Assembly: GCA_004375875.1 (NCBI GenBank)
Contig: SOKE01000033.1
Coordinates: forward strand, 38,468 to 102,467
From: Candidatus Babelota bacterium
GTDB lineage: Bacteria; Babelota; Babeliae; Babelales; Vermiphilaceae
DNA length: 64,000 nt
Reading direction: 5' to 3'
Shown here in pieces: positions 10,047 to 52,818 of this stretch (position 1 is its first letter; every line of letters begins with the position of its first letter). Position numbers and translations under genes: made by a program. The notes beneath the pieces are model-generated. The model searched no databases and was not told the origin of the DNA. It worked only from the letters and a program-made list of their open reading frames with translations.

Positions 10047-11504
10047 ATGAGTAGCAAAATCAAACTTCGATCTTTTTTTTATATCATTCTATTAAATATA
10101 TTTTCATTGAGTATAAGTAGTACACCAGTTGGCAAACAAAGCATTAACGATTCCCGTACGAAAGAATATAAATTTGTATCACGCTCCCAATTTCCTGCAA
10201 AAAAAGAAGCTCACGCATTAAAAAATAAGATTTTATTTTGTAGAGGAAAACCAACTACTAAAGAACAACCATCCACCACTGATCAGCAACAAAGGGTACC
10301 GGTGAAAAAAGAGGAAGAACCATCATTTATTTTTGTATTTTCAGGATATATTAAACCAGAATTTTTTGTTGATTCACGCCAAGTTTTTGGGTGCCGCGCT
10401 AATCAAACATTGTTTAATCCAGAATGTAGGCTTTACGATCGTTGTTGTCGTGACATTAACGCTCACGGACAATTTAATATTTTAGCGATTGAATCACGTG
10501 TTCGAACTGAAATTATAGGGCCTTCTATAGGATCAGCAAAAAGTAAAGGAGTTATTGAAGCAGATTTTTATGGTGTCCGCGAAGATATGATTAATTCATT
10601 ACGAATGCGTCATGCCTATTTTTCGCTTACTTGGAAAAATAGAGAATTATTACTTGGACAATATTGGCATCCTATTACCAGTCCAGAATGTTATCCGCAA
10701 ACGCTTTCTTTTAATTGTGGTGGACCAATGGATCCATATAAACGTGTTCCACAGATTAGAATCACCAGATTTATTAGACCCTTAGAATTAATTGCGGCTG
10801 TTTCTTCTGCTGTTCACTTTGTAAATAATGGACCAATTGGGTTTAGCTCAAGCTATTTGCGTAATGCAATTGTTCCTAATCTTAGTTTTCTCATTCAGGC
10901 GCGTCCTTCAACTCATTTAATCGGTGCGGGCATTGATTTTAAACGACTTGTTCCACGATTGGTTAGTAATAATAATTTTAAAGTTTCAGAATCAATCAAT
11001 AGCCTTACTGCTCTTGCTTATACTGCATTTAATTGGGAAACATTTGCACTTCGCGCAAAAATAGCGCTTGCACAAAATGGCTCTGTTTTTACACTCTTAG
11101 GAGGCTATGCAGTGCATTCAATTCAGCCAGATACCGATCATCGGACATATACTAACTTGAATACTATTACAGCTTGGATTGATTTCAATCGTGTGCATAA
11201 AAAGGTAGAACCTGGATGTCTCATTGGGTATACAAAGAATTTAGGTGCAACATCTACAATTATTCCTTGCCTCCAACAGAATGATTCATGTGAATCATTA
11301 GTTTACACGTTTCTTTATCCTAATATAGATTATGTTTTCAGAATTTCACCACGTATACGTATCTATTATAAACCGGTTGTTTTTGGTGCAGAACTTGAAT
11401 ATACGCGTGCTGCTTTTGGACAACTTAATAATAGAGGTCGAATTAACTGTCCACGCCCTGTTGAAAACATACGATTGCTTTTGGCAGCTTTCTATTTCTT
11501 TTAA
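10047..11504 (+). CDS. Porin-like outer-membrane protein
   Basis: The protein has 485 residues, with a signal peptide at about 1-24 (FFYIILLNIFSLSIS). A low-complexity, charged stretch follows to about residue 90. From there alternating strands run to the C-terminus: FSGYIKPEFFVDSRQVFG near the start of the mature barrel, RTEIIGPSIG, MRHAYFSLTWKNRELLLGQY, and a final strand ending in Phe (LLLAAFYFF), as expected of outer-membrane barrels recognised by the BAM machinery. GYIKPEFFVDSRQV and LLLGQYWHPI resemble the opening strands of diffusion porins. It overlaps the convergent gene at 11501 by four bases. The porin class is likely; the substrate is unknown. Confidence 0.7.
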   Translation: MSSKIKLRSFFYIILLNIFSLSISSTPVGKQSINDSRTKEYKFVSRSQFPAKKEAHALKNKILFCRGKPTTKEQPSTTDQQQRVPVKKEEEPSFIFVFSGYIKPEFFVDSRQVFGCRANQTLFNPECRLYDRCCRDINAHGQFNILAIESRVRTEIIGPSIGSAKSKGVIEADFYGVREDMINSLRMRHAYFSLTWKNRELLLGQYWHPITSPECYPQTLSFNCGGPMDPYKRVPQIRITRFIRPLELIAAVSSAVHFVNNGPIGFSSSYLRNAIVPNLSFLIQARPSTHLIGAGIDFKRLVPRLVSNNNFKVSESINSLTALAYTAFNWETFALRAKIALAQNGSVFTLLGGYAVHSIQPDTDHRTYTNLNTITAWIDFNRVHKKVEPGCLIGYTKNLGATSTIIPCLQQNDSCESLVYTFLYPNIDYVFRISPRIRIYYKPVVFGAELEYTRAAFGQLNNRGRINCPRPVENIRLLLAAFYFF

Positions 11505-12850
11505 ATAAATTCACCTGTTGTTGGTATAGTAACTTCTGGCGATACCTTATCTTCAGGTGATACCTTTCCTTCATCAGAAGGTATTTCTTTTACCTCAACT
11601 TTAGGTGTTTCTTCCGCCTCAACTTTTGGTTTTTTAGGAGGTTTCTTTTTAGGTGTCACTTGTTTTTTTTCTTCAATTACTTTCTTGTTTGTTTCTACTT
11701 TAATCCATTCTTCTTTGCCTGTATCCAGCCATAGATTATGAAGTAATTGACGGGTTTCTGGATCAAAGCTTAATGGAAGACCGCCAAAATTGTATTCTTT
11801 CATTGCTTCAAATTTTTTAATAATTTTGTTGAAGGTTATATCTCCTTTTATTTGTTTTAAAACCTTCACAAACAAGGATGCAGCAAGATAGGCTTCCAAG
11901 CATTGACAATCTAATAGTAAACGTCCTTCACTTTTCTCAACATCATCCTGGAATTGTTTAATGATAGCTAATTCTTTTTTCTTATTTGCTGCTCGTTTTT
12001 CAGGGCAAGGTACTACGTGAGCAATAATAAAATGTAGTTGTCTGTCTTTGATGAAGTCTTTAAAATCAGAAATACTTAAATCGGATATACCAAACAGTTT
12101 TTTTCTTTTTACTTCTTCAAGACCAAGCTGTCGTATCAATGCTTCTGCTGCTGTTGATGTTGAAAAAAAACCGATCGCATCTATGTTTGCTCCTTTTATT
12201 TTTTTTACAGCAGCGGAAAAATCAACATCATTACGTTCATAGGGAACTTCAAGGCCATCCTTGATGCCCTTTTCTTTTAATGCATCACGCGCACCTCGTA
12301 AAATATCCAAACCAGATGCATCATTTTGATAAAAAAAGGCAATATTTTTAGCGTTTAATTTCTCAATTACATATTTTGTTAATACGTAGCCTTCATCGTA
12401 ATAAGAAGCGCGTAAATGTATCAAATTCCTCAAATCTGGTTTGCGAAAAATCGAAGTTCCAGTAATTGGAAATAATACGAGAACTTTGCCTTCTTTAACC
12501 AAATCAAGGTATGCATTAAGAGTTGGCGTTCCTGCTGGACATACAATAAGTCCCGTTTTAACTTTATTTAACAATATTTCAATATTTTCGCGTGCCTTAT
12601 CAGGTGTGTATTCATCATCCATAGGAGTTAACTTTATTTTACGGCCATTTATACCGCCTTCTTTATTAACCTTATTAAAAACATATTCGAGTCCACATAG
12701 AACTTTGGTAGATTCGCTTTTAAGTCCCCTGGTTAAGTCAAGTGTCGTACCAATTTTTATAAATTTAGAAACAGGTTGTTCATTATATAAAGTAAAAAAT
12801 AATATAAAGGTAAACCCACAAAAGAGAATCCGATAATTAAGTTTCTTCAC
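11501..12850 (-). CDS. Membrane-anchored type-I periplasmic binding protein (urea/branched-chain amino-acid class)
   Basis: GTG at 12850 is chosen as start because AGGAG lies eight bases before it; the frame extends nine codons further. The 449-residue protein has a hydrophobic anchor at 6-22, then a Peripla_BP_6/FmdD-type binding domain at about 30-370 that opens IKIGTTLDLTRGLKSES, continues NKEGGINGRKIKLTPMDDEY and ends FDPETRQLLHNLWLDTG. The last 75 residues are rich in Lys, Glu and Pro and probably disordered. In the family these domains bind amides or amino acids and deliver them to an ABC transporter, but no permease or ATPase gene is present. The same domain occurs three times in the next gene and once at 19043. 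Confidence 0.85.
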   Translation of the reverse strand: MKKLNYRILFCGFTFILFFTLYNEQPVSKFIKIGTTLDLTRGLKSESTKVLCGLEYVFNKVNKEGGINGRKIKLTPMDDEYTPDKARENIEILLNKVKTGLIVCPAGTPTLNAYLDLVKEGKVLVLFPITGTSIFRKPDLRNLIHLRASYYDEGYVLTKYVIEKLNAKNIAFFYQNDASGLDILRGARDALKEKGIKDGLEVPYERNDVDFSAAVKKIKGANIDAIGFFSTSTAAEALIRQLGLEEVKRKKLFGISDLSISDFKDFIKDRQLHFIIAHVVPCPEKRAANKKKELAIIKQFQDDVEKSEGRLLLDCQCLEAYLAASLFVKVLKQIKGDITFNKIIKKFEAMKEYNFGGLPLSFDPETRQLLHNLWLDTGKEEWIKVETNKKVIEEKKQVTPKKKPPKKPKVEAEETPKVEVKEIPSDEGKVSPEDKVSPEVTIPTTGEFI

Positions 12851-12957
12851 TGTTTTACTCCTTTTTAAAAGCACATTATTTATTCATAAAAAATATATGT
12901 AAAAAATATAACTACTTATTTACCTTGTTCATTAAAGCTAATTTTATATAGCATTTA

Positions 12958-15900
12958 TTATGCTGCTACGGCTTCTTGTTCTTTTTTAGGTTTTTCCTTA
13001 GGAATTTCTTCTTTTATCTCTTTCTTTAGTTCTATTGCAGGAGAAATTTCTTCTTTTTTTATTGCTATTTTTTTCCATTCTTCCTCACCTGTATCAATCC
13101 ATACTGTATGGGATAATTGACGTGTTTCTGGATCAAAATCTAAGATTAACCCCTTAAAATTATAGTCCTTTAATGACTCAGCAACAGCTCTAATTTTTTC
13201 TTTTGTAACGGGACCGCTAATTTTCTTAACCATATCAACAAACAAGCTTGCTGTTATATATCCTTCTAGAGTGTAAGCATCACAGGGAAGATCTTTTTTC
13301 TGTATTAATTTTCTAAATTCTTGGACAATCTCAAGTGAACTTCTTTCTGGATCAGGAACAGGGTAGGAAACGATGACCTTAAGATTTTCTCGCTCAATAA
13401 AGCGTTGAAACGTTGTTTCTCCTAATGTATTTACCCCAAATAATTGTTTTCCTATAAAAATAGGTATACCCGCTTGTCGTATTAAGTTGATTGATGCAGT
13501 TGAGGTAGTAAAAAAACCTAAGGCATCAAAATTACCTTCTTTAAGGAGAGTAACCTGTTTTTTTAAATCTGTTTCACCAAGCCGATGGGGAATCTCAATC
13601 CATTTAGTAATACCGGCCTCTTTGAGAGCTTTTTTCGCTCCTTCAAGACATCCAAGTCCAAATGCATCATTTTGAAAAAAGAAGGCAAATTTATTTATAT
13701 TTCCAGTCTTAAGTAAATATTTAACTGAGGTGTAAATTTCTTCAGAATAAGCAATTCTAAAATTAATTAAATTAATAAGATCAGGTTTTCGAAATTCAGA
13801 GGCAGCTGTTGTTGGGAAAAGTACGAGAACTTTTTTTTCTTTAACAAGATCAAGATATCTCAGCAATGTGGAACTTCCAATAGGTGTCAGGAGAATATCA
13901 ATATTATTTTTCAGTAACGAAAGAACATTTTCGCGAGCCCGTTCTGGGACATATCCATCATCAAGAATATGCAAATCTATTATTTTCCCATTTATTCCCC
14001 CTTTTTTGTTTACCTCTTCAAAACACATTTGCATACCATTTTTTATGGATATTCCGAGCTGTTTAATACTTCTTGTTAAATCGAGTGTTGTTCCAATTTT
14101 AATCCTACCCTCATCAACTTTCACTTCAACTTCTTTTTTGGGTTCCTCAGGAATTTCTTTTTCTACCTTTTTTTCTTTTTTTAGTGTTATTTCTTCCCAT
14201 TTATCTTTGCCTGTATCAAGCCATAATGTATGGCATAATTGACGTGTTTCTGGATCAAAATTAAGCTTTATACCCTTAAAATTATAATCTTTTAACGACT
14301 CAGCTACAGAAATTATTTTTTCCTTGGTCACTATTCCTTTGACCTTTTTAAGAATACCACCAAAAAGATCTGCGGTAAGGTAACCTTCAAATAAATAGGT
14401 TTCAAGTGGATAATCATATTCCTTAGCTAAATCCCTGAATTCCTTCGCAATTTCCAAATTGCTTGCTTTTGGATTAGGAACAGGATAGGATACCGTAAAG
14501 CTAAGGTTCTCTCTTTTAATAAATCGCTGAAAAGTTATTTCTCCAAGTGTATTAACCCCAAATAGTTTTTTTCCAGCTAGAGCGGGTATACCAAGCTGCC
14601 GAATGAAGTTAATTGCGGCAGTTGAAACAGCAAAAAAACCAATTGCATCGAATGTTTTTCCTTTCAACTTTTTTACTTGTTTTCTAAAGTTAGTTTCTCC
14701 ATGTCTGTGTGATATTTCAATCCATTCGTTTATATCAGCTTCCTTGAGAGCAGTTATTCCTCCTTTCAGACAAGATCTGCCAAAGGCATCATCTTGGAAG
14801 AAGAATACAAACTGTTTTACTACTTCAGTCTTGAGCAAATTTTTTACAAGCGCATATCCTTCTTTATAATATGATGCTCTAAAATTAACTAGATATTTTA
14901 AATCAGGCTTACGGAAATTTGTAGAACCAGTTAAAGGAAAGAGTACTAAAACTTTTCCTTTCTTTACCATATCAAGATAATTATTAAGAGTCGGACTTCC
15001 AAGTGGTGTTAAAAGAGTATCTATATTATATTTAGTTAATAATTCAATTACATTGGCACGCGCTTTCTCGGGGACATAGCCATCGTCAAGGACATGAAGA
15101 TCAATTATTCTACCGTCTATACCCCCCTCTCTATTTACTTTACTAAAGTACATCTCCATGCCATTTTTTAAAGGTACTCCAAGCTGTTTAATGCTTCTTG
15201 TTAGATCGAGTGTTGTTCCAATTTTAATCTTGCGATCCTCAACAACCTTTACTTCAACTTCTTTTTTGGGTTCCTCAGGAATTTCTTTTTCTACCTTTTT
15301 TTCTTTCTTTAGTTCTATTGTTTGCCATTCAGGCTTACCAGTATTAAGCCATAATGTATGCGATAATTGTCGGGTGCTTGAATCCCAGTTTAAGATAAGG
15401 CCTTCAAAGTTTACATTTTGTATAGCAGACGCTGCTTTAAGAATTGCTTCGTTAGTTATGGGATCTTTTAATTTTTTTAATATATTAATTAAGAAAGATG
15501 CGCTTATATAACTTTCGAGAGCATATACATCAAGCCTTTTTCTTCCATGCGCTTTTGCCTTGTTCCTAAATTTTTCTACTATGGGTAAAGAACTTTTTGC
15601 TGGATTTGGAACTACATTTGTGTTAATCAATTTGAGATCATTTTTCTGTATAAATTCTCTGAAATCCTGTCCACCTAAAGTACGAATACTCAGTAGTTTC
15701 TTTTTTCTCAATTTCTGTATACCTGCCTGATTAATAAGAGCCTTTGCAGCAGTAGCAGTGCTAAAAAATATTATGGTATCAATAGAGGGATCGAGTAATT
15801 TGTTTATGCGCTCTTCACCAAAATTTAAATCATTTCGGTCATATGAAACCTCCACCCAATCTTTTATTTTCATTTCTCGAAGTTGAGTTTGTGCTCCCTC

Positions 15901-17757
15901 TAAAGGGTCTTTACCAAATAAATCATCCTGAAAAAAAAAGGCTATTTTTTTAGCATTTAATTGCTCGATAGCATATTTTGTAATGGTATAACCTTCATCG
16001 CGGTAAGAAGGCATAAGATGTATCATGTTTAAGGTATCGGTACGAAATTTTGAAGCACCAGTTATAGGAAAGAGGACTAAAATCTTGCCTTCTTTAATAA
16101 GATCAAGATATGCCTCAAGTGTTGGTGTTCCTGTAGGACACAGGATACGGTTAATATTATATTTTGAAATAAGTATCTCAATATTTTTTCGTGCCAGTTT
16201 TGGAGTATATTCGTCATCAAGTGGTATAAGTGCTAATTCTCTTCCACGAATACCTCCTGCTTCATTTGCATCTGTAATAGCCCAATGCAATCCACTCTTA
16301 ACAGCCTTACTTTCTCTTTTAAATCCTTTAGAAAGATCTAATGTTGTACCAAAAAAAATTTTTTCTTCGACCTCTTCTTTTTCAATTTTTTCCTTTACAA
16401 CAACCCTTGGAATTTCTTCTTCCTTTTTTAGTTCTTCTTTAAGTTTTTTCCCTTCGACTAATTCTGTTTCAAGTTTTTTGATTTTCTGTCGTTCTGTTTC
16501 CAATTCCCTTTTTAATGCTGCAATACTTTCTTCTTTTGGAGGAGGCTTTGCTCTAACTTCAGCTTCAAATCCTGATAGCAAGTTAAATATTTTGGCTTCA
16601 ACAAACCCCAATTGTTCTCTGACATCCTGGTTATAGAGGGTTAATATCCAATCATCAACCTTCGGATATATGGTAAGAGTAACAAAAGTATCATAAAAAA
16701 ATTCAAATAAACGTCTGTGACAGCCAATAGGACTCGAGAGTGTTGCCCAGGTAATAACACCCTTTTGTCTTCCAAGCATTTTTGCTCCAGGAGTTGGGCG
16801 ATATTCTACTGTTAAATTTTCACCTTTAATGATGGCTTTGATATCGACCTTCTTTTTTGAGGTTTGTCTGTTTGTTAGCCGGAAAAGTTGTGGTTTCTCA
16901 TTTCCCGGAGTTTCTAAGAATCCTGCGAATCTTTCCTCCCGTAGTTCCTTATAACCTATTCCGTAATTAGAAATACGTACTACATCTATAGTTTCCTTTG
17001 TTTGTCCAGCCACCAGATAAAGTGCAAGGGGTAGTGTATTAAAGAAGCTGGTTATTTTCGAATTAAATGGAATTGTTTTGTCAGAAAGATGGCGAGCCCT
17101 GATTATAAGTTCTTGACGCAATCCATAATCATGCCATATTTGTTTATCCTCATGTCTTCCTCTAATATAAAAAACATGATCAGGATTAATGTGCATAAGC
17201 TGCATAACTACCATCAATGTTTCAAGGATATAAGGAGATTGATCAACTACGTCACCATTAAATACGAAATAACAATGAGGTTTGATAATTTTTAGGTCAT
17301 TATTGATAATACCTTGAAGTTTTAACTCACCAAGATCTCTTACCAATGAATGAAATGCACTGTGAAGGTTGCCAAAAATTATAAATTGGGTTCCTGGTTC
17401 AGGAACCATTTTTTGAATGAATCTCCCTATATATCCATTCAACTCACGATCTTTTGTTATTTGTTTAAGTAATGCAATAAAACTTTCGACAGTCCAAAGC
17501 GGTTTTTTTATGCCAATTCGTCTTAGGAGTTTCTCAAAAAAACTTGGTAAAGCCCTTTTATGGAATGATGTATAATCTGGATAAAACCAGTCTATGTTAT
17601 CGATATCAGGAAATTCATTATGGGTTAAAGCATACTTACGAAGATCAGTTAATGTGGTAAAAACATCGAGCTTGGCATTATCTTTTTTCCTATCGTAGCA
17701 ATAATTCTGTAAGCAGCAGAGCAATATAAAAAACCATAAAAAAACACTTTTTTTCAT
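12958..17757 (-). CDS. Exported fusion: degenerate PPP-type phosphoesterase plus three periplasmic binding domains
   Basis: The protein has 1599 residues and is very large. Residues 1-22 look like a signal peptide; AGGA precedes the ATG. Residues 60-395 form a calcineurin-type phosphoesterase module with motifs GNLHS (129-133), GDVVDQ (168-173) and GRHE (200-203). The first aspartate and the GNHE asparagine are replaced, so metal binding is doubtful. A coiled-coil linker at about 405-450 leads to three Peripla_BP_6 domains at about 467-815, 842-1190 and 1215-1560, each opening with GTTLDL and ending with a TRQL.HT.W..TG signature. The linkers between domains share a run reading KKVEKEIPEEPKK. 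The C-terminus is Lys/Glu-rich. It ends 15 bases from the channel gene upstream, suggesting one operon. The architecture suggests an envelope ligand sensor; this is inference. Confidence 0.85.
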   Translation of the reverse strand: MKKSVFLWFFILLCCLQNYCYDRKKDNAKLDVFTTLTDLRKYALTHNEFPDIDNIDWFYPDYTSFHKRALPSFFEKLLRRIGIKKPLWTVESFIALLKQITKDRELNGYIGRFIQKMVPEPGTQFIIFGNLHSAFHSLVRDLGELKLQGIINNDLKIIKPHCYFVFNGDVVDQSPYILETLMVVMQLMHINPDHVFYIRGRHEDKQIWHDYGLRQELIIRARHLSDKTIPFNSKITSFFNTLPLALYLVAGQTKETIDVVRISNYGIGYKELREERFAGFLETPGNEKPQLFRLTNRQTSKKKVDIKAIIKGENLTVEYRPTPGAKMLGRQKGVITWATLSSPIGCHRRLFEFFYDTFVTLTIYPKVDDWILTLYNQDVREQLGFVEAKIFNLLSGFEAEVRAKPPPKEESIAALKRELETERQKIKKLETELVEGKKLKEELKKEEEIPRVVVKEKIEKEEVEEKIFFGTTLDLSKGFKRESKAVKSGLHWAITDANEAGGIRGRELALIPLDDEYTPKLARKNIEILISKYNINRILCPTGTPTLEAYLDLIKEGKILVLFPITGASKFRTDTLNMIHLMPSYRDEGYTITKYAIEQLNAKKIAFFFQDDLFGKDPLEGAQTQLREMKIKDWVEVSYDRNDLNFGEERINKLLDPSIDTIIFFSTATAAKALINQAGIQKLRKKKLLSIRTLGGQDFREFIQKNDLKLINTNVVPNPAKSSLPIVEKFRNKAKAHGRKRLDVYALESYISASFLINILKKLKDPITNEAILKAASAIQNVNFEGLILNWDSSTRQLSHTLWLNTGKPEWQTIELKKEKKVEKEIPEEPKKEVEVKVVEDRKIKIGTTLDLTRSIKQLGVPLKNGMEMYFSKVNREGGIDGRIIDLHVLDDGYVPEKARANVIELLTKYNIDTLLTPLGSPTLNNYLDMVKKGKVLVLFPLTGSTNFRKPDLKYLVNFRASYYKEGYALVKNLLKTEVVKQFVFFFQDDAFGRSCLKGGITALKEADINEWIEISHRHGETNFRKQVKKLKGKTFDAIGFFAVSTAAINFIRQLGIPALAGKKLFGVNTLGEITFQRFIKRENLSFTVSYPVPNPKASNLEIAKEFRDLAKEYDYPLETYLFEGYLTADLFGGILKKVKGIVTKEKIISVAESLKDYNFKGIKLNFDPETRQLCHTLWLDTGKDKWEEITLKKEKKVEKEIPEEPKKEVEVKVDEGRIKIGTTLDLTRSIKQLGISIKNGMQMCFEEVNKKGGINGKIIDLHILDDGYVPERARENVLSLLKNNIDILLTPIGSSTLLRYLDLVKEKKVLVLFPTTAASEFRKPDLINLINFRIAYSEEIYTSVKYLLKTGNINKFAFFFQNDAFGLGCLEGAKKALKEAGITKWIEIPHRLGETDLKKQVTLLKEGNFDALGFFTTSTASINLIRQAGIPIFIGKQLFGVNTLGETTFQRFIERENLKVIVSYPVPDPERSSLEIVQEFRKLIQKKDLPCDAYTLEGYITASLFVDMVKKISGPVTKEKIRAVAESLKDYNFKGLILDFDPETRQLSHTVWIDTGEEEWKKIAIKKEEISPAIELKKEIKEEIPKEKPKKEQEAVAA
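14123..14179. repeat. Linker direct repeat copy A
   Basis: About 57 bases here are identical to a segment starting at 15251, a period of 1128 bp (376 codons). They encode the charged linker between binding domains two and three of the 1599-residue protein and mark a recent domain duplication. Confidence 0.85.
15251..15307. repeat. Linker direct repeat copy B
   Basis: This is the partner of the repeat at 14123. It encodes the linker between binding domains one and two. Confidence 0.85.
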
Positions 17758-17772
17758 ATTTTTTTCCTACTC

Positions 17773-18858
17773 TTAAACTAAAAGATGAAGGAAGTAATAC
17801 CACATAAACAAAAATAAGAAATGAAATGTCAAAAAGATTACCCCTCGTGCAATAATAAGAAATCGAGTAAGATGACCTACACTTATCATCACAATCGCAA
17901 ATATAAATTCTAATACAGACAGACTAAGCAATAGAGTAAATATATAGTCACTAAAAACAAAATATCCTACCTGTGGTGTTATACGCTCGATAACAAAACG
18001 GTACGAAAGGAGTGATGTTATAGTACCAGTTGCAAGCCCCAAAATCATAGTAGCATGTTTTTTGGGATCAAATGCAAAAGAAAAGAGACCTACGAAAAAA
18101 ATGATACATAATGGAAGAATAATGAGTAAAATATATCGAATACCAGAACGTCTGTAATCTATAGAGAATACTGTCTTTGGATGTAATACAACCTTCTCGG
18201 GATCAAGCTTCTCCAACCGTGATTCAGAATATCCAGTCTTAACTGTTTTTCCTTCTTCTTCCCATCCAGAAATTTCAATTGATTGATCGATAGAAAAATA
18301 AGATTCATATGATACGAAAATCATTTCACTTGGAGGAATATAACGATTGACCAAGATAATAGACATGCGATGATCATCAAAAGGAAAATAGGTGTAGTTA
18401 AGATCTATACTAAACTCGAATTGAATATCAAAACGAGCAAAGAATTTGTCATCTATGATCTTTGTATAGGGAGCAGATTTAGCGGTGAGGGTTCCTTTTT
18501 CAAAAGAAAATTTATTTACTGTCTCAAGCGATATAAGAGCGGGATCAAACTCAAACCAGAGAATTCCATCAATAACAAATTTATTAGCGACAAAATCGAA
18601 AACTGAAAAACTTCTTATATAGAGACCAACCTTAACAGGAACTGGTTCCCCTCCCCATGCCTTAATTTTTTGGGGCGTAATAGGTAATAAAGGGGGATAC
18701 GGTTCAAGTGCATAGAACCTTTGAACGGGATGATAGGCCATAAAAATAATAGCGGAAGAAACAAAAAAAAGTGTTATAAATTGAAAACGAGGACGAACAA
18801 TGGTACAAAAAAATGTAATTAAAAAATTTTCTTTGTTTGTTTGCTTCATACTATTCAT
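17773..18858 (-). CDS. Pentameric ligand-gated ion channel homologue (Cys-loop/pro-loop family)
   Basis: The protein has 361 residues. A basic start and hydrophobic anchor or signal (27-48) precede a ligand-binding domain at about 65-235. It contains VKVGLYIRSFSVFDFVANKF and a following W..FDP segment, matching the 'V.vg.yi..i..vd....F.v...l...W.Dp.L' pattern, and FPFD at 158-161, the conserved pro-loop motif (Cys-loop in animal receptors). Four membrane helices follow at about 240-262, 269-290, 300-326 and 335-360, in the M1-M4 arrangement of bacterial channels such as GLIC and ELIC. The loop cysteines are absent, as usual in bacteria. It lies 15 bases upstream of the 1599-residue sensor-like gene and downstream of another binding protein. 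The ligand and ion selectivity cannot be read from the sequence. Confidence 0.75.
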   Translation of the reverse strand: MNSMKQTNKENFLITFFCTIVRPRFQFITLFFVSSAIIFMAYHPVQRFYALEPYPPLLPITPQKIKAWGGEPVPVKVGLYIRSFSVFDFVANKFVIDGILWFEFDPALISLETVNKFSFEKGTLTAKSAPYTKIIDDKFFARFDIQFEFSIDLNYTYFPFDDHRMSIILVNRYIPPSEMIFVSYESYFSIDQSIEISGWEEEGKTVKTGYSESRLEKLDPEKVVLHPKTVFSIDYRRSGIRYILLIILPLCIIFFVGLFSFAFDPKKHATMILGLATGTITSLLSYRFVIERITPQVGYFVFSDYIFTLLLSLSVLEFIFAIVMISVGHLTRFLIIARGVIFLTFHFLFLFMWYYFLHLLV

Positions 18859-19042
18859 TATGATAATGATAAACCATAGATTATATTATTATTCTCTTTC
18901 CTAATTTAATATACATTATTTTAACTTACGATACATATTTTCATACGTCAAAATCAATTAACCTAATGAGAGCTTTATTTAGAAAATGTCTTGCAATTTT
19001 TATTGAATTTTTTTAATGGAGACAGAGACAGTAGCAGAAGAT

Positions 19043-20287
19043 TCAAGTGGTAATGGCGTTCCATTGGTCTTTGCCAGTATTAAGCCACACAGTATTTGAT
19101 AATTGTCGTGTTTTTGTATCAAAGTTCAATTTTAATCCTTTAAATTCACGATCCTTTACTTGCTCTGCAACATTAACTATTGTCTCCATAGTTATTGGAC
19201 CTTCTATCTGTTTGAGTAAATACACAAAAAGTTTCATATTTATATAAACCTCTAAGGCAAAGGCATCTAGAGAGATATTTTCTTGTATTGTATATTTTCT
19301 AAATTCCTCTACAATCTCCAATTGGCTGGTATTAGGATTAGGGACAACATTACCTATAATTAACTTTAGTCCTTTATTTTTAAGAAAAAGCTGAAATGGT
19401 TCTTCTGCTAAATCTTCACTTCCAAGTAAGTTTTTTCCTGAGAAAAATCCAGTTCCAAGCTGTCGAATGAAGGCTTTCGTTGGTACAGAAACACTAATAA
19501 ATATTATAGTATCGGGATCAAACTTCTTAATTTGCGTTACCTGTGAACGGAGATCAGTAACATTACGAGGATACGGTATTTTTTCTACTTGTGAAATTCC
19601 TTTTTCATTTAAATATTTGAGAATACCAGTTAAGCCTGATTCTCCAAAAGAATCGTCTTGGTAAAATACAGCAATCCTTGTTGCTTTTAATGTTTCTATT
19701 GAGTATTTTGCCAGGATATAGCCTATAGTTTCTGTAGGAGCCCTAAAACGAATTAAGTATTTTAAGTTATGTTTTTGAAATGATGCGCTCGCAATTGGAA
19801 ATAAGACCAAAACCTTTTCTTCTTTAATTAAATTAAGATATGATTTAAGTGTAGGGCTTCCTAAGGGATTTAAAATTATATTAATATTATCTTTGAGTAG
19901 CGTTTCAATATTTTTTTTTGCTTTTTCCGGAGTATACTCATTATCCAAAGCAGTTAGATAAACAGGATGACCATTAACTCCTCCTTCTTGATTTATACCT
20001 TGAATTATTAGATCCATATGTTGTTTTATTCTTTTTCCCTGAAATCCTAAACTTTTGCTTAAATCAAGGCTTGTGCCGATATAAAGGGGTTTTCTTTTGT
20101 TGTTTAAAGGAGGTTTTTCTGCATACATTTTTTGGATAGAACTATAAATAATAAAAAAAATAAAAAACACAAGAGGGCTCCATAAAAATAAATGAGGAGC
20201 CTTCTTAAAAAAAGAATGGATCCAAGAGTTATTTTTTATAATTGATTGTTTCATAACATTAAATAGAAGGGGTAACTTTTTCTTCAT
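19043..20287 (-). CDS. Membrane-anchored type-I periplasmic binding protein
   Basis: The protein has 414 residues. A cytoplasmic basic segment of about 30 residues leads to one membrane helix at 33-52 (LWSPLVFFIFFIIYSSI), then a Peripla_BP_6-type domain at about 70-410 opening LYIGTSLDLSKSLGFQG, with QEGGVNGHPVYLTALDNEY and the closing FDTKTRQLSNTVWLNTG signature shared with its paralogues. The type II anchor topology would place the domain in the periplasm and fixed to the inner membrane, unlike a soluble ABC-transport receptor. No Shine-Dalgarno site is obvious before the start. It lies about 185 bases upstream of the channel gene on the same strand. Confidence 0.8.
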   Translation of the reverse strand: MKKKLPLLFNVMKQSIIKNNSWIHSFFKKAPHLFLWSPLVFFIFFIIYSSIQKMYAEKPPLNNKRKPLYIGTSLDLSKSLGFQGKRIKQHMDLIIQGINQEGGVNGHPVYLTALDNEYTPEKAKKNIETLLKDNINIILNPLGSPTLKSYLNLIKEEKVLVLFPIASASFQKHNLKYLIRFRAPTETIGYILAKYSIETLKATRIAVFYQDDSFGESGLTGILKYLNEKGISQVEKIPYPRNVTDLRSQVTQIKKFDPDTIIFISVSVPTKAFIRQLGTGFFSGKNLLGSEDLAEEPFQLFLKNKGLKLIIGNVVPNPNTSQLEIVEEFRKYTIQENISLDAFALEVYINMKLFVYLLKQIEGPITMETIVNVAEQVKDREFKGLKLNFDTKTRQLSNTVWLNTGKDQWNAITT

Positions 20288-20375
20288 CTATCTACTACAT
20301 TGTTAAAATGTCAATACAAACAAAGGGTTTTGATGAAAATGTTTTTCATTTTTTAACTAAATATACAAAAAATAA

Positions 20376-21644
20376 TTAGTCAGATGATATAGCTTTTTCA
20401 TCATTCTTAACTTTGGAGCCGGAAATAAGGTTATATTCCACAATTTTTTGAAATACTGGTTTTTTATCTTCTTGAAGAGGTGCTTCCCGACTCCATAAGG
20501 AAATTTTCCAATCATCTATTTCTAGTGCTGTTGTGAGTATTACAAAAGAGTCATATATAAATCCAAATAGTCGTCGAGTTGTATTGGTATTACTTGAAAA
20601 TACGGACCATTCTGCTACACCATTTTTTTTTCCCCAAAAAAGTAATCCTGCTTCAGGGGAATAATCTCTTATTCGTTTTCCTCCTCGAATGGCCGCTAAC
20701 GACCATCGTTCAATAGTGATGAGCGAATCCAATTTTATCTCTTTCGTGGGTAATTTCTTTTCTTCGCTCAATTTGTAACCAATTGGCTTTTCATCAACGG
20801 GTATATCCCAAAAATTTCCATATTTTTCTTCTCTTAATTCTTTATCTTCTAAGGGAAAACTTGATATGCGTATAACATTTACTGTTTTTTCTGATGAAGA
20901 AGTAACCAGATACAATGCAAGAGGTAAAGTATCAAAAAACGTGTTCATTAGTGAACCAAGAGGAATATCGTTTTTTGAAAAGCCAGATGCTCGTAAAACA
21001 AGCTCTCTTCGCAGTCCATATCGATGCCATTTATTTTTATCTTCGTGGTCACCTTTGATATAAAACACTTTCTGAGGGTTATTGTCTATAAGACGCATTA
21101 CAAGCGTTAATGTTTCAAGGATAAATGGAGAACGATCAATAACATTGCCAATAAAAACAATATAATAATCTGGTTTAATAATTTTTAATGAATCATCGAT
21201 TATTTTTTGTCGTTTTAACTCCTTTAAATTACGGATTAACGAATGGAAAGAACCATGAATATTGCCGAAAATAATAAATGATGAATTAGGCTTTGGTTTT
21301 AGTTTTAAAACAAACCTTCCTGTATAGCTGTCTCGCTTTTGTTTTGTAACAGTTTTCTGCAATAAGGTTGCAAAGTCAGAAGCTGTCCAAGCTGGTTTTC
21401 GAAGCCATAATTTTGTTAATATTCTATCAATTAATCCTGGCAAATGTTTTTTATGGAATGTAGTATAATTAGGATCCAGCCAGTCTCCCATCTGTAGAAT
21501 GTTATCAGCATTCGGATATTCCTCTAGCTTCGCGGCATATTTTTCGATCGATTCCAGACGATCAAAAACTACTGCATAGAAAGTTGTATCTGAACAGATA
21601 GTAAATAAAAGGATTAGTATATAACGCATTTTACGAGTAGTCAT
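20376..21644 (-). CDS. Exported degenerate PPP-type phosphoesterase
   Basis: The protein has 422 residues, with a signal peptide at about 6-24. It is homologous over its length to residues 1-400 of the 1599-residue fusion (shared DP.YTTFHK, KPAWT, FIIFGN.H). The PPP motifs are altered: GNIHG (127-131) for GDIHG, GNVIDRS (166-172) for GD..DRG, and GDHE (198-201) for GNHE. Two metal-binding aspartates are thus Asn and the usual Asn is Asp. Canonical PPP enzymes use these residues to bind two metals, so this protein is either an inactive sensor domain or has changed metal use. It is the first gene of the minus-strand locus with the channel and binding proteins. Confidence 0.75.
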   Translation of the reverse strand: MTTRKMRYILILLFTICSDTTFYAVVFDRLESIEKYAAKLEEYPNADNILQMGDWLDPNYTTFHKKHLPGLIDRILTKLWLRKPAWTASDFATLLQKTVTKQKRDSYTGRFVLKLKPKPNSSFIIFGNIHGSFHSLIRNLKELKRQKIIDDSLKIIKPDYYIVFIGNVIDRSPFILETLTLVMRLIDNNPQKVFYIKGDHEDKNKWHRYGLRRELVLRASGFSKNDIPLGSLMNTFFDTLPLALYLVTSSSEKTVNVIRISSFPLEDKELREEKYGNFWDIPVDEKPIGYKLSEEKKLPTKEIKLDSLITIERWSLAAIRGGKRIRDYSPEAGLLFWGKKNGVAEWSVFSSNTNTTRRLFGFIYDSFVILTTALEIDDWKISLWSREAPLQEDKKPVFQKIVEYNLISGSKVKNDEKAISSD

Positions 21645-22138: not shown

Positions 22139-25100
22139 TTACTTTTCTGTGAGCTCTATTATTTTTCTAATCGGAACAGCAATTTCAATGCCACGTTTTC
22201 TTAGTTCATGAGTAATTTCTATACGAATTGAGCTGGCAATATTCCAGATTTCTAACGTATAATTGGAACTTACAAATCCCCTAATCAGGAAGAGATATCC
22301 GTATTCACCGAAATTGTCTAATCGGACTACTGGTTTGGGACTCTTCAAGATATATGGGTTTTTATCTAATACCTGAAGTAAGGTATCGCGAACAACGGTT
22401 GGATTATCCTTATATGATATCATAATGTGAATATCATCGAAGGCAACAAAACCGGGACGATAATTCCAGTTAATAAGTACCTTTTTTATTATTTGCGAAT
22501 TAGGTACTATGTATGTTGTACTGTTTTTTCTACGTAAAATTACTGCTCTTGGTGTTATTTTACGAACAACACCCATGGTTTGTTCATCGAGTTTTACATA
22601 GTCACCAATTTTTAAAGGCCGTTGTACTAAAATGATCATATAAGCAACAAAGTCACTCACAGGATCTTTAATAACCCAGCCAATGCTTAAGACTAGGAAA
22701 CCAAATAACCAACCAACATATTGTCCCAATCCTATTGCCTGGAAACCAAGAACAATAGCGGTAAAAATGATAAGATAGCGAGTTATTGTTACGACAGCAT
22801 TTTGAATGCCAGGTTCTACAAGCAGAACATCAAAAATTCTACCCAGAACAAATCGATTGAATGCATAAAAAATTAGTGCGGCAGCAAGAATAAATGAGAG
22901 GAATTGAAGAATGGAGGCTGCCGAAATTGGTGCTTCTGTACCCCTGAGCATAATTGGCATATAAATCCATTCACGGATATCTTTCCAATTCTTTATTTTA
23001 GAGAGTGTTTCTGGCCAATCCCATATTTTTGCTCCAATAAATATCCCAATTAAGATTAATGTTATAAAAGTGATTATGACAAAAACCCCATACCATGTTT
23101 TAGCATAGGAGAAACGTTCTTTAACTACTTCTTCTTCCACAGAGAAAAAGAGTTTCGATGAAATTCTTTTTGAAAATTTATGCAACCAAAATAGGATGGT
23201 AACAATCAGTATGGTATAAAACAGACGTGAAAGAATATAAAGTACAAGTGGCCCATATCCAACATAGGGGTTACTCATAATGATAATTGTGATAACAAAT
23301 GGTAGCAGCATATAGAAATAGCTGTCAACAAAATTACGAATCGTATGCCCAATGACAGTTGTTGTAGGAATACGATCTAGAATTTGTTCTTTGGAAAGAA
23401 GAAAAATTAGCACAAGCTGTAGTATAATAAAATTGATTGCTCCTAACGTTCGTGGCAATTCTGACTTATGATAGACGAGTAATTGAAATGATTCTTTGAA
23501 TAGTAAAATGAAAATCGTAGCATAAATAAGCACAGAAAAAACGATAGTAAAACGTCGTTGAAATTCTTGTTTAACAAAACAGTATTCATACTGCTTATTA
23601 AACTCTATGAATGCACGGATTAATCTATTGGAAATATAAAGAAAATAGGGGATTGATCCAATATAAAAAAGTGCAGTTAAATATGGATCAATCATCTTAA
23701 GATGGTAAAATACAAAAAAGGTCAACAACCATAATGCAATGCCGAGGAAATAGACAACAAAAAAGGTAATTAAAAATAAGGCAAAAAGTATAAGCAACCT
23801 TGCTAAATAATATTCAATTTCAATACCGCGCAAAAGCTTATCAATTTTTGGTAGATAGATCCGCAAAAGAAATAGTAATAGTGCTAATAATAACAGTTTA
23901 ATAAAGAAGAAAAGAATCTCATATGGTCTATCAATAATTACCTTAATTTTAGCTATCATTGAGCCGAAACTAAATGTAGTGAGATAATTATATAAATCGG
24001 TTATAAATATGCGACTATCAGGAATTATGCTACTGATTGCTTTCCATGAGATAGCTGCTTCTGGACGTCTCAAAAACCGCAATAATCCTGGTAAATCTGG
24101 TACAACTAAATCAATCTGTTGCAGACTGCTTTTGTTTGTAGTGATAATATCAGTGTATACATTAATAATTTTGCCAAGAATGTCGATTTGTTTAAGTATA
24201 TTTTCTTCAATTGTATTTAACAATGAAATGACTTTGCTATACTCTCTATCATAATTCTTAAAAAGAACAGTCGCCTGTTTTTCTATCTCTTTTCTGTGTT
24301 CTTTAATGTTTTCGAGTGATTTTTTCTGAATATCAAGTTGATCAGAAGTAATATTTTTTCTTCCTTCATAGAGTGAAATTGCTGCATTAGCCTTTGCCTT
24401 TAATGCTTCATATTTTTTTTCCTCTTCAGCTATTTCTTCAGTTGATTTGAACCGCTGCGCAGTAATTTTATAGTAGGTTTCTTTGATAGTAACAAGCACT
24501 GCTTCGGATTCAAATTTTTCTCTTTCTAATTCCATTCGTGCTTCAAGAAGTTCTTTTTCACATTTAACAAGCAGTACCTGATCATTAAATGTACCCACTT
24601 CAAAGAGAGCTATATATCCTTCAACCGTTTGTCTTGATTTACGACTCCAATCGTCTAAATCAGGTCCAAGAGGTATGTTAAAGCGTCTGCTTAATTCTTC
24701 TAGTTCTTGATCTCTAGGTTTGCGTCGTTCAAGTTCCTTACTGAACGTTTCTCGTCGATTAAAATATTCATGCTCTTTTTTTGTCAGATCATCCTTGGCA
24801 ATTGCGATGTCTGCCTCAGTTATACGAATATGAGATTTTGCATGCTCAAGTGCTTTTTTTAATGCATCTAATTGCGCATCAGCAATGACTTTTTTGCGTT
24901 TGAGGAGTTCTTTTTTTGTTTCTATTTCTTTAAGGCGTAATTGTTCGAGGTCTTGTTTTTCGTTATATAATTTTTCCTCCAGTACAAATAATTCACGTAT
25001 TTGACGTTTATCAAAGTCAAATGGTTGTGAATTGGAGGTCATTGCTGTTTCAAACTCTACCTGCTTCTTCTTGAATGTTTCCTCGAGCGATGCAATTATG

Positions 25101-25678
25101 CGTTTGCGACTTTCTAATTCTATGTTTACATTCTTGTCCTGATTTTTAAGAAATAAAATATTTTTTTTGCCATCAATCACTTTTTGCGTAAGTGTTTGTA
25201 TGTTTTCGAATGAATAGGCTGCGACTTTAAATAACTTTTGCTCTTTTTTGAACTCTTCTAAATTTGGATCGGCTAAAAAATCAGTGACAATCTTAATTAA
25301 TTTCTTTTTTTCTTCTATTAACTGACTACGTACTTTTATTTTATCCTTAAGAACTTGGAGCTGGTCATTCAAAAGTGATTGCTTTTTTATTAAAAAATCA
25401 TCATCTGGTTGTTGTAGTAATTCTTCTTTGACCAAGGCAATCTGATTTTCGATGCTAGATATCTCTTTTTCTGTGGATTCAGTAAATTCCTTTTGTGTAA
25501 ATTCTAATTGTTCCTGTTCCTTTGAAAGGTCAGCCAAGAATTTTCGTTTTGCCTCAAGTGCAGGTTCAAAAATATCTGCTCTGACTAAATGTTTTGTTAC
25601 TTCACCAAGAAATCCAGCTGATTGTAGAAAGGTTCCTCCTACAATAAAAATAAGGGATACTAAAAAAACTTTTTTCAT
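22139..25678 (-). CDS. Very large MscS-family mechanosensitive channel with periplasmic coiled coil
   Basis: The protein has 1179 residues. GAGGAGG stands just before the ATG. A signal peptide (about 1-20) is followed by about 480 residues of charged coiled coil, then roughly eleven membrane helices from about 575, and the MscS core at about 985-1175: pore-lining helix region (YVGWLFGFLVLSIGWVIKDP), beta domain (RPLKIGDYVKL, NSTTYIVPNSQI) and the alpha/beta C-terminal domain. The layout matches MscK/MscM-type channels, which release solutes on osmotic downshock. The start overlaps the end of the RecO-like gene by four bases, so they are co-transcribed. Function as a channel is likely; regulation by the long periplasmic domain is inference. 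Confidence 0.88.
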   Translation of the reverse strand: MKKVFLVSLIFIVGGTFLQSAGFLGEVTKHLVRADIFEPALEAKRKFLADLSKEQEQLEFTQKEFTESTEKEISSIENQIALVKEELLQQPDDDFLIKKQSLLNDQLQVLKDKIKVRSQLIEEKKKLIKIVTDFLADPNLEEFKKEQKLFKVAAYSFENIQTLTQKVIDGKKNILFLKNQDKNVNIELESRKRIIASLEETFKKKQVEFETAMTSNSQPFDFDKRQIRELFVLEEKLYNEKQDLEQLRLKEIETKKELLKRKKVIADAQLDALKKALEHAKSHIRITEADIAIAKDDLTKKEHEYFNRRETFSKELERRKPRDQELEELSRRFNIPLGPDLDDWSRKSRQTVEGYIALFEVGTFNDQVLLVKCEKELLEARMELEREKFESEAVLVTIKETYYKITAQRFKSTEEIAEEEKKYEALKAKANAAISLYEGRKNITSDQLDIQKKSLENIKEHRKEIEKQATVLFKNYDREYSKVISLLNTIEENILKQIDILGKIINVYTDIITTNKSSLQQIDLVVPDLPGLLRFLRRPEAAISWKAISSIIPDSRIFITDLYNYLTTFSFGSMIAKIKVIIDRPYEILFFFIKLLLLALLLFLLRIYLPKIDKLLRGIEIEYYLARLLILFALFLITFFVVYFLGIALWLLTFFVFYHLKMIDPYLTALFYIGSIPYFLYISNRLIRAFIEFNKQYEYCFVKQEFQRRFTIVFSVLIYATIFILLFKESFQLLVYHKSELPRTLGAINFIILQLVLIFLLSKEQILDRIPTTTVIGHTIRNFVDSYFYMLLPFVITIIIMSNPYVGYGPLVLYILSRLFYTILIVTILFWLHKFSKRISSKLFFSVEEEVVKERFSYAKTWYGVFVIITFITLILIGIFIGAKIWDWPETLSKIKNWKDIREWIYMPIMLRGTEAPISAASILQFLSFILAAALIFYAFNRFVLGRIFDVLLVEPGIQNAVVTITRYLIIFTAIVLGFQAIGLGQYVGWLFGFLVLSIGWVIKDPVSDFVAYMIILVQRPLKIGDYVKLDEQTMGVVRKITPRAVILRRKNSTTYIVPNSQIIKKVLINWNYRPGFVAFDDIHIMISYKDNPTVVRDTLLQVLDKNPYILKSPKPVVRLDNFGEYGYLFLIRGFVSSNYTLEIWNIASSIRIEITHELRKRGIEIAVPIRKIIELTEK

Positions 25679-26256
25679 GACCTCCTCATAAAGAATGAAA
25701 GTGTCCTAAAACAATTAGCGCATGGATGGATTGCTATACAATAATCTAACCATTGATCTAACTTTCTTTCAAGAGATAAGTCTATTGATTTATTGATAAG
25801 AGCGTCAATATACTCAAACCGTATCAGACGAAAGATGAAAATGGGAATTTGATTATCTTCAGGATAGAAGCCTAAGTGTGCAAATAATTTACATAAAAAA
25901 AGTTTCTTGCTTCCATTACAATTAAACTTTTCAGGAGGAGTGTAAAGAAAAAAAAGTAAGTCAAAAATATCATTAGCCATTTTAGCAAGAGGGATAAAAT
26001 AATAAGATAGTTCAAGAACGTGGTGAAAAAAGATAAGATCATCAAGATTTTGTATCACAGGTAATTCAAGCACATCAATATGATGAAGGGTCATCCATGA
26101 ATTCCGCTTGCTCAAATTATATGTCATAAGCGATCCACAGCTTATATCTGAACGATCAGAGAGAGCACAAAATTTGCCCAGATTTTTATCCAAGATAAAA
26201 AACCTTTTCGAATTTCTATTATCTTTGCACAATAAAATTCCTATTTGCTTTGTCAT
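25675..26256 (-). CDS. RecO-like DNA repair protein, divergent
   Basis: The protein has 193 residues, shorter than typical RecO (about 240). The N-terminal 80 residues could be the RecO OB fold (GILLCKDNRNSKRFFIL, LGKFCALS). The middle has FFHHVLELSYYFIPL, followed by FDLLFFLY and CKLFAHLGFYPED, matching the RecO pattern of an E-rich helix, 'F.lL...L', and 'LL..lGy.P'. The C-terminus has a CIAIHPCANC cluster. RecO loads RecA on gapped DNA with RecR. Overlap with the MscS gene is ATGA. Divergence is high, so the family call rests on layout rather than on catalytic residues. Confidence 0.45.
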   Translation of the reverse strand: MTKQIGILLCKDNRNSKRFFILDKNLGKFCALSDRSDISCGSLMTYNLSKRNSWMTLHHIDVLELPVIQNLDDLIFFHHVLELSYYFIPLAKMANDIFDLLFFLYTPPEKFNCNGSKKLFLCKLFAHLGFYPEDNQIPIFIFRLIRFEYIDALINKSIDLSLERKLDQWLDYCIAIHPCANCFRTLSFFMRRS

Positions 26257-52453: not shown

Positions 52454-52818
52454 GGGGGCGTAATGGCTTCGACGTGTTATTGACAGCTTTAAGAGCATGT
52501 CGAGCGTTGGCTAAGTGCTCGTTAAACAATTGGTCAAAAAAAGAAATGCAGAGACAGAAATGCCTGCAGTTGCTCTTGCCTAAGTAAGTAGCAACCTTAT
52601 CAACTAAACGTGCCTATCAGTTCGGTTGATTCGTAGTAGATCAGATAGGACCATCGAGTAAGATTCTTTAGGTGCGTAGCTCGATTGGTATCACGAACCT
52701 GACGTATCTGACAGGTCATGTCTTCGAGATGTCAGATATGAAGAATCGAAGGCTAAACATGTAGCGCTTGAGGTTTGATATAGTGCGGACATGGGTTCGA
52801 CTCCCATCGCCTCCACCA
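52454..52818 (+). ncRNA. ssrA: Transfer-messenger RNA
   Basis: The 5' end GGGGGCGTAATGGCTTCGACG is the standard one-piece tmRNA start (first 7 bases pair with CGCCTCC near the 3' end, one G-U). The T arm GTTCGACTC precedes it, and CCA is encoded at 52816-52818. The tag frame most likely runs from GCA 52548 to TAA 52581-52583, giving AETEMPAVALA after the charged alanine; the hydrophobic end ALA is the usual protease signal. tmRNA with SmpB rescues stalled ribosomes. The resume codon is inferred from the usual A-rich context before it. Confidence 0.95.

Follow-up and report, generated by a model that had tools for sequence, protein, structure and literature searches.

Does a bacterial ion channel that is encoded among binding proteins and degenerate phosphatases form part of a joint sensing system? 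The question is raised by a locus in a 64,000 nucleotide stretch (the window) of contig SOKE01000033.1 (assembly GCA_004375875.1, positions 38,468 to 102,467) of a Candidatus Babelota bacterium. The host genome comprises 37 contigs, totals 927 kb and is 93.66% complete, and the cultured relatives in the phylum Dependentiae are parasites of protists. Five consecutive open reading frames (ORFs) on the minus strand, from 21644 down to 11501, encode proteins of 422, 414, 361, 1599 and 457 amino acids, as the first-pass annotation of the letters had placed them. By profile and predicted fold, the 361 amino acid protein is a divergent channel of the pentameric ligand-gated ion channel (pLGIC) type; its neighbors carry type-I periplasmic binding protein (PBP) domains and degenerate domains of the PPP phosphatase family. 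The intergenic gaps are short (88, 184, 15 and 83 bases, in order), making a single transcription unit plausible; a promoter and terminator scan was uninformative (promoter-like sites: 48 versus 45.2 expected; terminator-like sites: 4 versus 5.4 expected). The composition of the cluster is not a matter of chance, as it recurs across the phylum, and since channel, PPP and PBP are kept together in most of the examined channel genomes, the three probably function jointly as a chemical sensor made of several parts.

Conservation of the channel, PPP and PBP genes across the phylum

Members of the pLGIC family were identified in 63 of the 101 genomes of the phylum, and in 43 of the 68 genomes with a completeness of 90% or more and a contamination of 5% or less. 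Channel matches total 110 when summed; the mapping covered 98 channel ORFs, which, counting the window, are distributed over 81 loci and 60 genomes. The window and 80 fetched regions represent 60 of the 63 channel genomes, with G059, G062, G065 and several contig-end fragments left out. Genes were called as the longest ORFs of at least 80 amino acids and runs were delimited by gaps of less than 400 bases. The domains of the window were the starting point for the PBP and PPP profiles, which were then refined by iteration over the fetched regions.

Within two genes of the channel and in the same strand run, a PBP is encoded beside 81 of the 98 channels, a PPP beside 76, both beside 73 and either beside 84. 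Co-conservation of these genes in relatives had been set beforehand as a test of the first-pass annotation, which is borne out by these counts. Counted by genome, 52/60 have a PBP and 53/60 a PPP near a channel, with both partners near a single channel in 52. Similarly, 31 of 32 loci in named genome records (L116-L147) carry a PPP or PBP gene beside the channel, these loci overlapping the mapped contigs and thus not being independent of them. Two gene orders recur, namely a channel followed by a PPP-PBP fusion, and a separate PBP, the channel and a PPP. PPP-PBP fusions are found in many loci, while elsewhere the partners flank the channel as separate genes, which by the Rosetta-stone argument suggests that the channel, PPP and PBP proteins meet. 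An all-against-all BLAST comparison furthermore revealed additional recurrent neighbor families without annotation around the channel loci.

The partners also track the channel between genomes. Peripla_BP_6 domains score above the Pfam cut-off in 55 of the 63 channel genomes versus 4 of the 38 others (G037, G051, G098 and G099), and the domains in these four are high-scoring and of canonical type. Strong channel-type PPPs are present in 49/63 channel genomes and in none of the 38 channel-less genomes, where strong denotes a best E-value of at most 2e-47, a threshold set post hoc that omits G005, G006, G016 and G064 despite their operon PPPs. At E-values of up to 1e-3, the PPP profile matches 58/63 channel genomes and 14/38 channel-less genomes, the latter matches being intact paralogues where examined.

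The records with relatives of the channel, where a name is given, bear names such as Candidatus Dependentiae, Babeliales and TM6, the exception being a Leeuwenhoekiella-labelled metagenome-assembled genome (MAG) with the three genes on two contigs (L120 and L121). A clear PPP-PBP member (P0252; 771 amino acids, on a 2.5 Mb contig) also occurs in a Myxococcales-labelled MAG. In both cases transfer is not distinguishable from misbinning or mislabelling. Channel, PPP and PPP-PBP genes are also encoded in locus L064 of G004, which is probably Babela massiliensis, a cultured parasite of amoebae, so that the module probably exists in a culturable organism. A channel search of G024 (probably Chromulinavorax) and G097 (probably Noda2021) gave no match. 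The available part of the Babela paper names MscS among the channels, and the term 'ligand-gated' does not occur in the main texts of the Babela and Chromulinavorax papers.

The 361 amino acid protein is a divergent pLGIC

The first-pass annotation had predicted a pLGIC homologue. The match to PF02931/PF02932, which it had set as a test and which reflects detection models and not a structural feature, fails, as the 361 amino acid protein has no Pfam match even at E <= 1 and only one of 30 family members (window included) touches PF02931 (e-value: 0.009). The objection that the protein is for this reason not a pLGIC is, however, outweighed. NCBIfam LGIC_1 matches the protein (e-value: 7.6e-6; Bitscore: 25.5, against a cut-off of 500) and 27 of the 30 family members, and the best Protein Data Bank (PDB) match of the family profile is GLIC (e-value: 2.9e-11). 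The predicted fold is that of a pLGIC subunit, with a beta-sandwich ectodomain and four membrane helices. Furthermore, the Pro-loop proline is present in all 98 aligned channels, and this is described as the sole absolutely conserved residue of the superfamily in the part of PMC4795631 consulted. Together, the profile match, the fold and the invariant proline identify the protein as a divergent pLGIC. As a single sequence against the PDB it retrieves the gamma subunit of the nicotinic acetylcholine receptor (e-value: 9e-7), which prompted a eukaryotic origin to be considered; this was rejected, since the family profile gives GLIC throughout the best 60 of 118 PDB rows.

An additional N-terminal hydrophobic segment precedes the ectodomain in 96 of the 98 mapped channels, as recounted by alignment position with a slightly lower hydropathy threshold; a first count by motif pattern, which often failed, gave 20 of 95 without the segment. 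In helix M2, positions 2′, 6′, 9′ and 13′ are mostly occupied by small or polar residues, with Arg at 15′ in 79 of 97 channels. Channel subunits with a greatly extended N-terminus that contains numerous hydrophobic segments are encoded in L036 (7118-11671; 1517 amino acids) and L040 (6040-7719 and 13385-15058; 557-559 amino acids), and we know of no other pLGICs of this kind. In G094, three channel genes lie in tandem (L101, 803-3975), with no PBP or PPP nearby.

The PPP domains are predicted pseudoenzymes

The calcineurin-like phosphoesterase domain of Pfam matches the 422 amino acid protein above the cut-off (e-value: 5.4e-11) and the 1599 amino acid protein below it (e-value: 0.003), and a test for the PPP fold was positive. 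The motifs GDxH, GDxxDR and GNHE are degenerate in both copies (Table 1), in agreement with the two degenerate PPP modules described in the first pass. The operon PPP domains are as such predicted, from their residues, to be inactive pseudoenzymes derived from PPP phosphatases. Among the domains retained after filtering by length and E-value (91 PPP domains for residue counts; 109 PBP domains for the tree), all seven catalytic residues are kept in one of the 91 operon-set PPPs, encoded on the opposite strand, versus 16 of 18 unlinked PPP paralogues drawn from 16 hand-picked regions. The first Asp is retained in 49 of the 91.

PPP phosphatases with intact motifs, mostly with signal-like N-termini, are also encoded in many Dependentiae, channel-less ones included (L148-L163). 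If secreted by these parasites of protists, the PP1-like enzymes might target proteins of the host.

No ABC permease was found for the binding domains

Five Peripla_BP_6 domains are identified by Pfam on three proteins, as originally described, and these constitute the entire Peripla_BP_6 complement of the assembly. Pairwise amino acid identities among them range from 42 to 65%, and among solved structures they are closest to 3lop ('substrate binding periplasmic protein') and to 4kv7 ('probable leucine/isoleucine/valine-binding protein'). The earlier statements that the domains are either fused or anchored, here at the N-terminus, and that no ABC transporter accompanies them are upheld by profile matches and hydropathy and by the absence of PF02653 (LivH/LivM-type permease) matches from the host genome (93.66% complete), with 12 of 14 control genomes positive. 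On this basis, ordinary ABC substrate-binding proteins were rejected as an explanation. By hydropathy, an N-terminal hydrophobic segment is present in 25 of 28 PBP-first and 84 of 97 PPP-first proteins, and no PBP profile match falls on any of the 98 channel ORFs themselves.

In the PBP tree, a 27-row clade consists exclusively of stand-alone PBPs, while the remaining 82 rows comprise PPP-fused PBPs and a few stand-alone ones, including the two of the window. Domains 2 and 3 of the 1599 amino acid protein are sisters (support 100/100). Longer arrays are found in L047, where a 2381 amino acid protein combines a PPP with five PBPs, and in L040, with a PPP and four PBPs. On this tree, the expansion of PBP domains is lineage-specific.

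Canonical-type PBPs have other surroundings: of those in G037, G098, G092 and G057, three have Cache-domain proteins as neighbors and the fourth belongs to a Liv-type ABC operon. In other Dependentiae genomes, pairs of a canonical LivJ-type and a Cache-domain protein outside the channel loci (L164, 58-4361; L165, 6894-11176; L166, 5499-7816) have Cache-domain partners of approximately 1010 amino acids in two loci and, in the third, one of 350 amino acids that falls below the Pfam cut-off. This pairing is possibly a second receptor system.

Proposed mechanism and alternatives

We suggest, at about even chances, that the channel is physically coupled to, and gated or tuned by, the neighboring binding domains, with the PPP-fold pseudoenzyme as the coupler. 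Each binding domain would close around a small solute, which by analogy with LivJ/LivK may be an amino acid or a similar compound. The PPP-derived domain, having lost most catalytic residues and kept its fold, would serve as a docking or coupling module on the channel ectodomain, such that domain closure would shift the open probability of the channel and change the bacterial ion gradient. With several binding domains per channel, one pore could report several solutes, probably derived from the host. The broader proposition, of a phylum-wide class of receptor-channels in intracellular bacteria, in which one pentamer is served by several detachable LivJ-type sensors and dead PP1/PP5-like couplers, is offered tentatively, and the balance leans against it.

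Several observations weigh against this coupled reading. Fourteen of the 98 channels, and all mapped channels of seven of the 60 genomes (G077, G042, G069, G041, G094, G039 and G086), have neither a PBP nor a PPP within two genes, and the channel may thus function without partners in some species. PPP-PBP genes are also encoded at a distance from channels (for example G093:C3 and G089:C15), and four core catalytic positions (D, H, D and N) are retained in seven of the 91 operon-set PPP domains. In addition, the 9′ gate of pLGICs is usually hydrophobic, whereas this position is Thr or Ser in 76 of the 97 channels, and conduction, as read from the residues, cannot be assumed.

The channels without partners would also fit an arrangement with no fixed complex, in which the binding domains merely concentrate or buffer a ligand for the channel's own ectodomain and the PPP is a spacer or anchor, Tasneem et al. 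(PMC549065, in the part consulted) having proposed a concentrating role for the PBPs and Cache proteins that accompany bacterial pLGICs. This is unlikely, as it leaves unexplained why a folded pseudophosphatase lies beside the channel so frequently (76/98) and is often fused to PBPs. Linkage differs from contact, and the lineage-specific domain duplication resembles that of surface-protein families, so that the neighborhood could represent secreted surface proteins that are co-inherited by happenstance and have no joint function. The occurrence of the trio in 52 of the 60 mapped genomes, in many families and in two gene orders, and the near absence of its partners from channel-less genomes, leave this explanation with only a slight probability.

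The retained first Asp and four-residue core would likewise be compatible with PPP domains that are active through another metal set or catalytic scheme, the cluster then being a ligand-controlled periplasmic phosphatase with the channel as its target. Given the contrast between operon-set and unlinked PPPs in complete seven-residue sets (1/91 versus 16/18) and the alteration of both window copies, we regard such activity as very improbable. A pLGIC-type pore could instead take up solutes without an ABC system, fed by the binding proteins, in parasites of reduced biosynthetic capacity; the missing LivH/M permease, the small genome and the mostly small or polar M2 residues agree with this. Such a role is nonetheless improbable, as the gated-channel ectodomain and Pro-loop features are retained and we know of no pLGIC that serves as a metabolite uptake channel.

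To our knowledge, what most bacterial pLGICs sense and do is not known. A strongly conserved operon in which a channel is paired with probable sensors makes the questions of ligand and coupling directly testable. A PPP domain that proved to be the coupler would represent a bacterial pseudophosphatase acting as a structural part in signalling. The receptor-channel class, if true, would be the first in which a pLGIC is gated by separate receptor proteins and in which a periplasmic pseudophosphatase has been repurposed as a signal coupler.

Features of the locus and adjacent genes

Table 1. Coordinates of the channel operon, its encoded domains and the upstream channel gene in the window
Feature	Position	Strand	Basis
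422 amino acid stand-alone PPP-fold pseudophosphatase, signal-like N-terminus	20376..21644	-	Catalytic positions NHNDRDH vs DHDDRNH
414 amino acid type-I periplasmic binding domain, N-terminal hydrophobic anchor (residues 30-52)	19043..20287	-	PF13458 (Peripla_BP_6) 4.5e-40; hydropathy; PDB 3lop 5.4e-19
361 amino acid pLGIC subunit with a membrane helix at the N-terminus, a beta-sandwich ectodomain and then four membrane helices	17773..18858	-	NCBIfam, GLIC profile match, predicted fold
Additional membrane helix at the channel N-terminus, residues 23-46	18721..18792	-	Predicted model; segment in 96/98 mapped channels
Helix M2, predicted pore-lining, residues 269-293	17980..18054	-	Model; alignment to GLIC M2; column counts
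1599 amino acid protein with a signal-like N-terminus, a PPP-fold pseudophosphatase and three type-I binding domains	12958..17757	-	Pfam (three Peripla_BP_6, 3.4e-117) and profile matches
PPP-fold domain of 1599 amino acid protein, residues 33-396	16570..17661	-	Profile match; catalytic positions NHDDQRH (vs DHDDRNH)
Binding domain 1 of 1599 amino acid protein, residues 467-804	15346..16359	-	Profile match
Binding domain 2 of 1599 amino acid protein, residues 844-1180	14218..15228	-	Profile match; 65% identity with domain 3
Binding domain 3 of 1599 amino acid protein, residues 1219-1554	13096..14103	-	Profile match
457 amino acid type-I binding domain, N-terminal hydrophobic segment (residues 12-32), charged C-terminal tail	11501..12874	-	PF13458 1.2e-43; hydropathy
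MscK-like mechanosensitive channel, 1179 amino acids, upstream of the operon; optional neighbor outside the core trio	22139..25678	-	

A gene coding for a 193 amino acid protein overlaps the start of the MscK-like gene (together 22139-26256). Relatives of both adjoin the channel in L044, L045, L047 and L048, with the MscK-like ones upstream. The MscK-like channel was considered as a component of the system; with relatives in just four of the 80 other mapped loci, it is a feature of a sub-lineage. Downstream, a convergent gene (10047-11504) shares four bases with the end of the last operon gene and encodes a 485 amino acid protein with weak, sub-cut-off similarity to DcaP porins; its relatives form a BLAST cluster near the channel in nine other genomes. 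A transfer-messenger RNA gene with the tag AETEMPAVALA is located at 52454-52818 (ARAGORN, Rfam).

Comparison with known systems

The first-pass annotation knew of no described system of this composition, which holds in part. The partnership of PBPs and pLGICs is already known and has been in print since 2004: according to the part of Tasneem et al. (PMC549065) consulted, bacterial pLGICs occur with PBP-I, Cache and MCP-N fusions and with PBP-II and Cache proteins in predicted operons, and the partners were proposed to concentrate or sense a ligand that then binds the channel itself. A literature search, mostly of open-access papers, retrieved no report of a pseudophosphatase partner, of multi-PBP arrays or of a phylum-wide Dependentiae module. 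The word 'phosphatase' does not occur in the main texts of PMC549065 and PMC4795631 (Jaiteh 2016), nor do 'periplasmic', 'fusion' and 'TM6' in the latter.

The association of a channel with small-molecule-binding domains is thus shared with the pLGICs of that survey (PMC549065, as far as consulted), whereas here the PBPs are on separate proteins, number up to five per chain, are often fused to a PPP and occur in another phylum. With GLIC, the proton-gated channel of Gloeobacter, the window family shares the fold, the four membrane helices, the Pro-loop proline and a proline after M2, but it differs in the additional membrane helix at its N-terminus, the polar 9′ position and the frequent 15′ Arg, at approximately 16% identity in a structural alignment. 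DeCLIC is likewise a prokaryotic pLGIC with accessory domains in the periplasm; these are, however, fused jelly-roll calcium-binding lobes in the parts of PMC9897478 and PMC12664993 consulted, in contrast to the separate PBP and PPP proteins described here.

Unlike PP5, PP1 and RDGC, the operon-set PPPs have lost catalytic residues, carry an N-terminal hydrophobic, signal-like segment and are often fused to PBPs. The Peripla_BP_6 domain is shared with the LivJ/LivK ABC substrate-binding proteins, but here it is linked to a channel, and a search of the genome for a LivH/M permease gave no match. Finally, a binding-protein-like N-terminal domain modulates the ion channel in ionotropic glutamate receptors (PMC12664993, in the part consulted), although the channel type is unrelated and the domain forms part of the channel's own chain. 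If the PPP domain does act as a coupler, the module described here would constitute an independent parallel to that arrangement.

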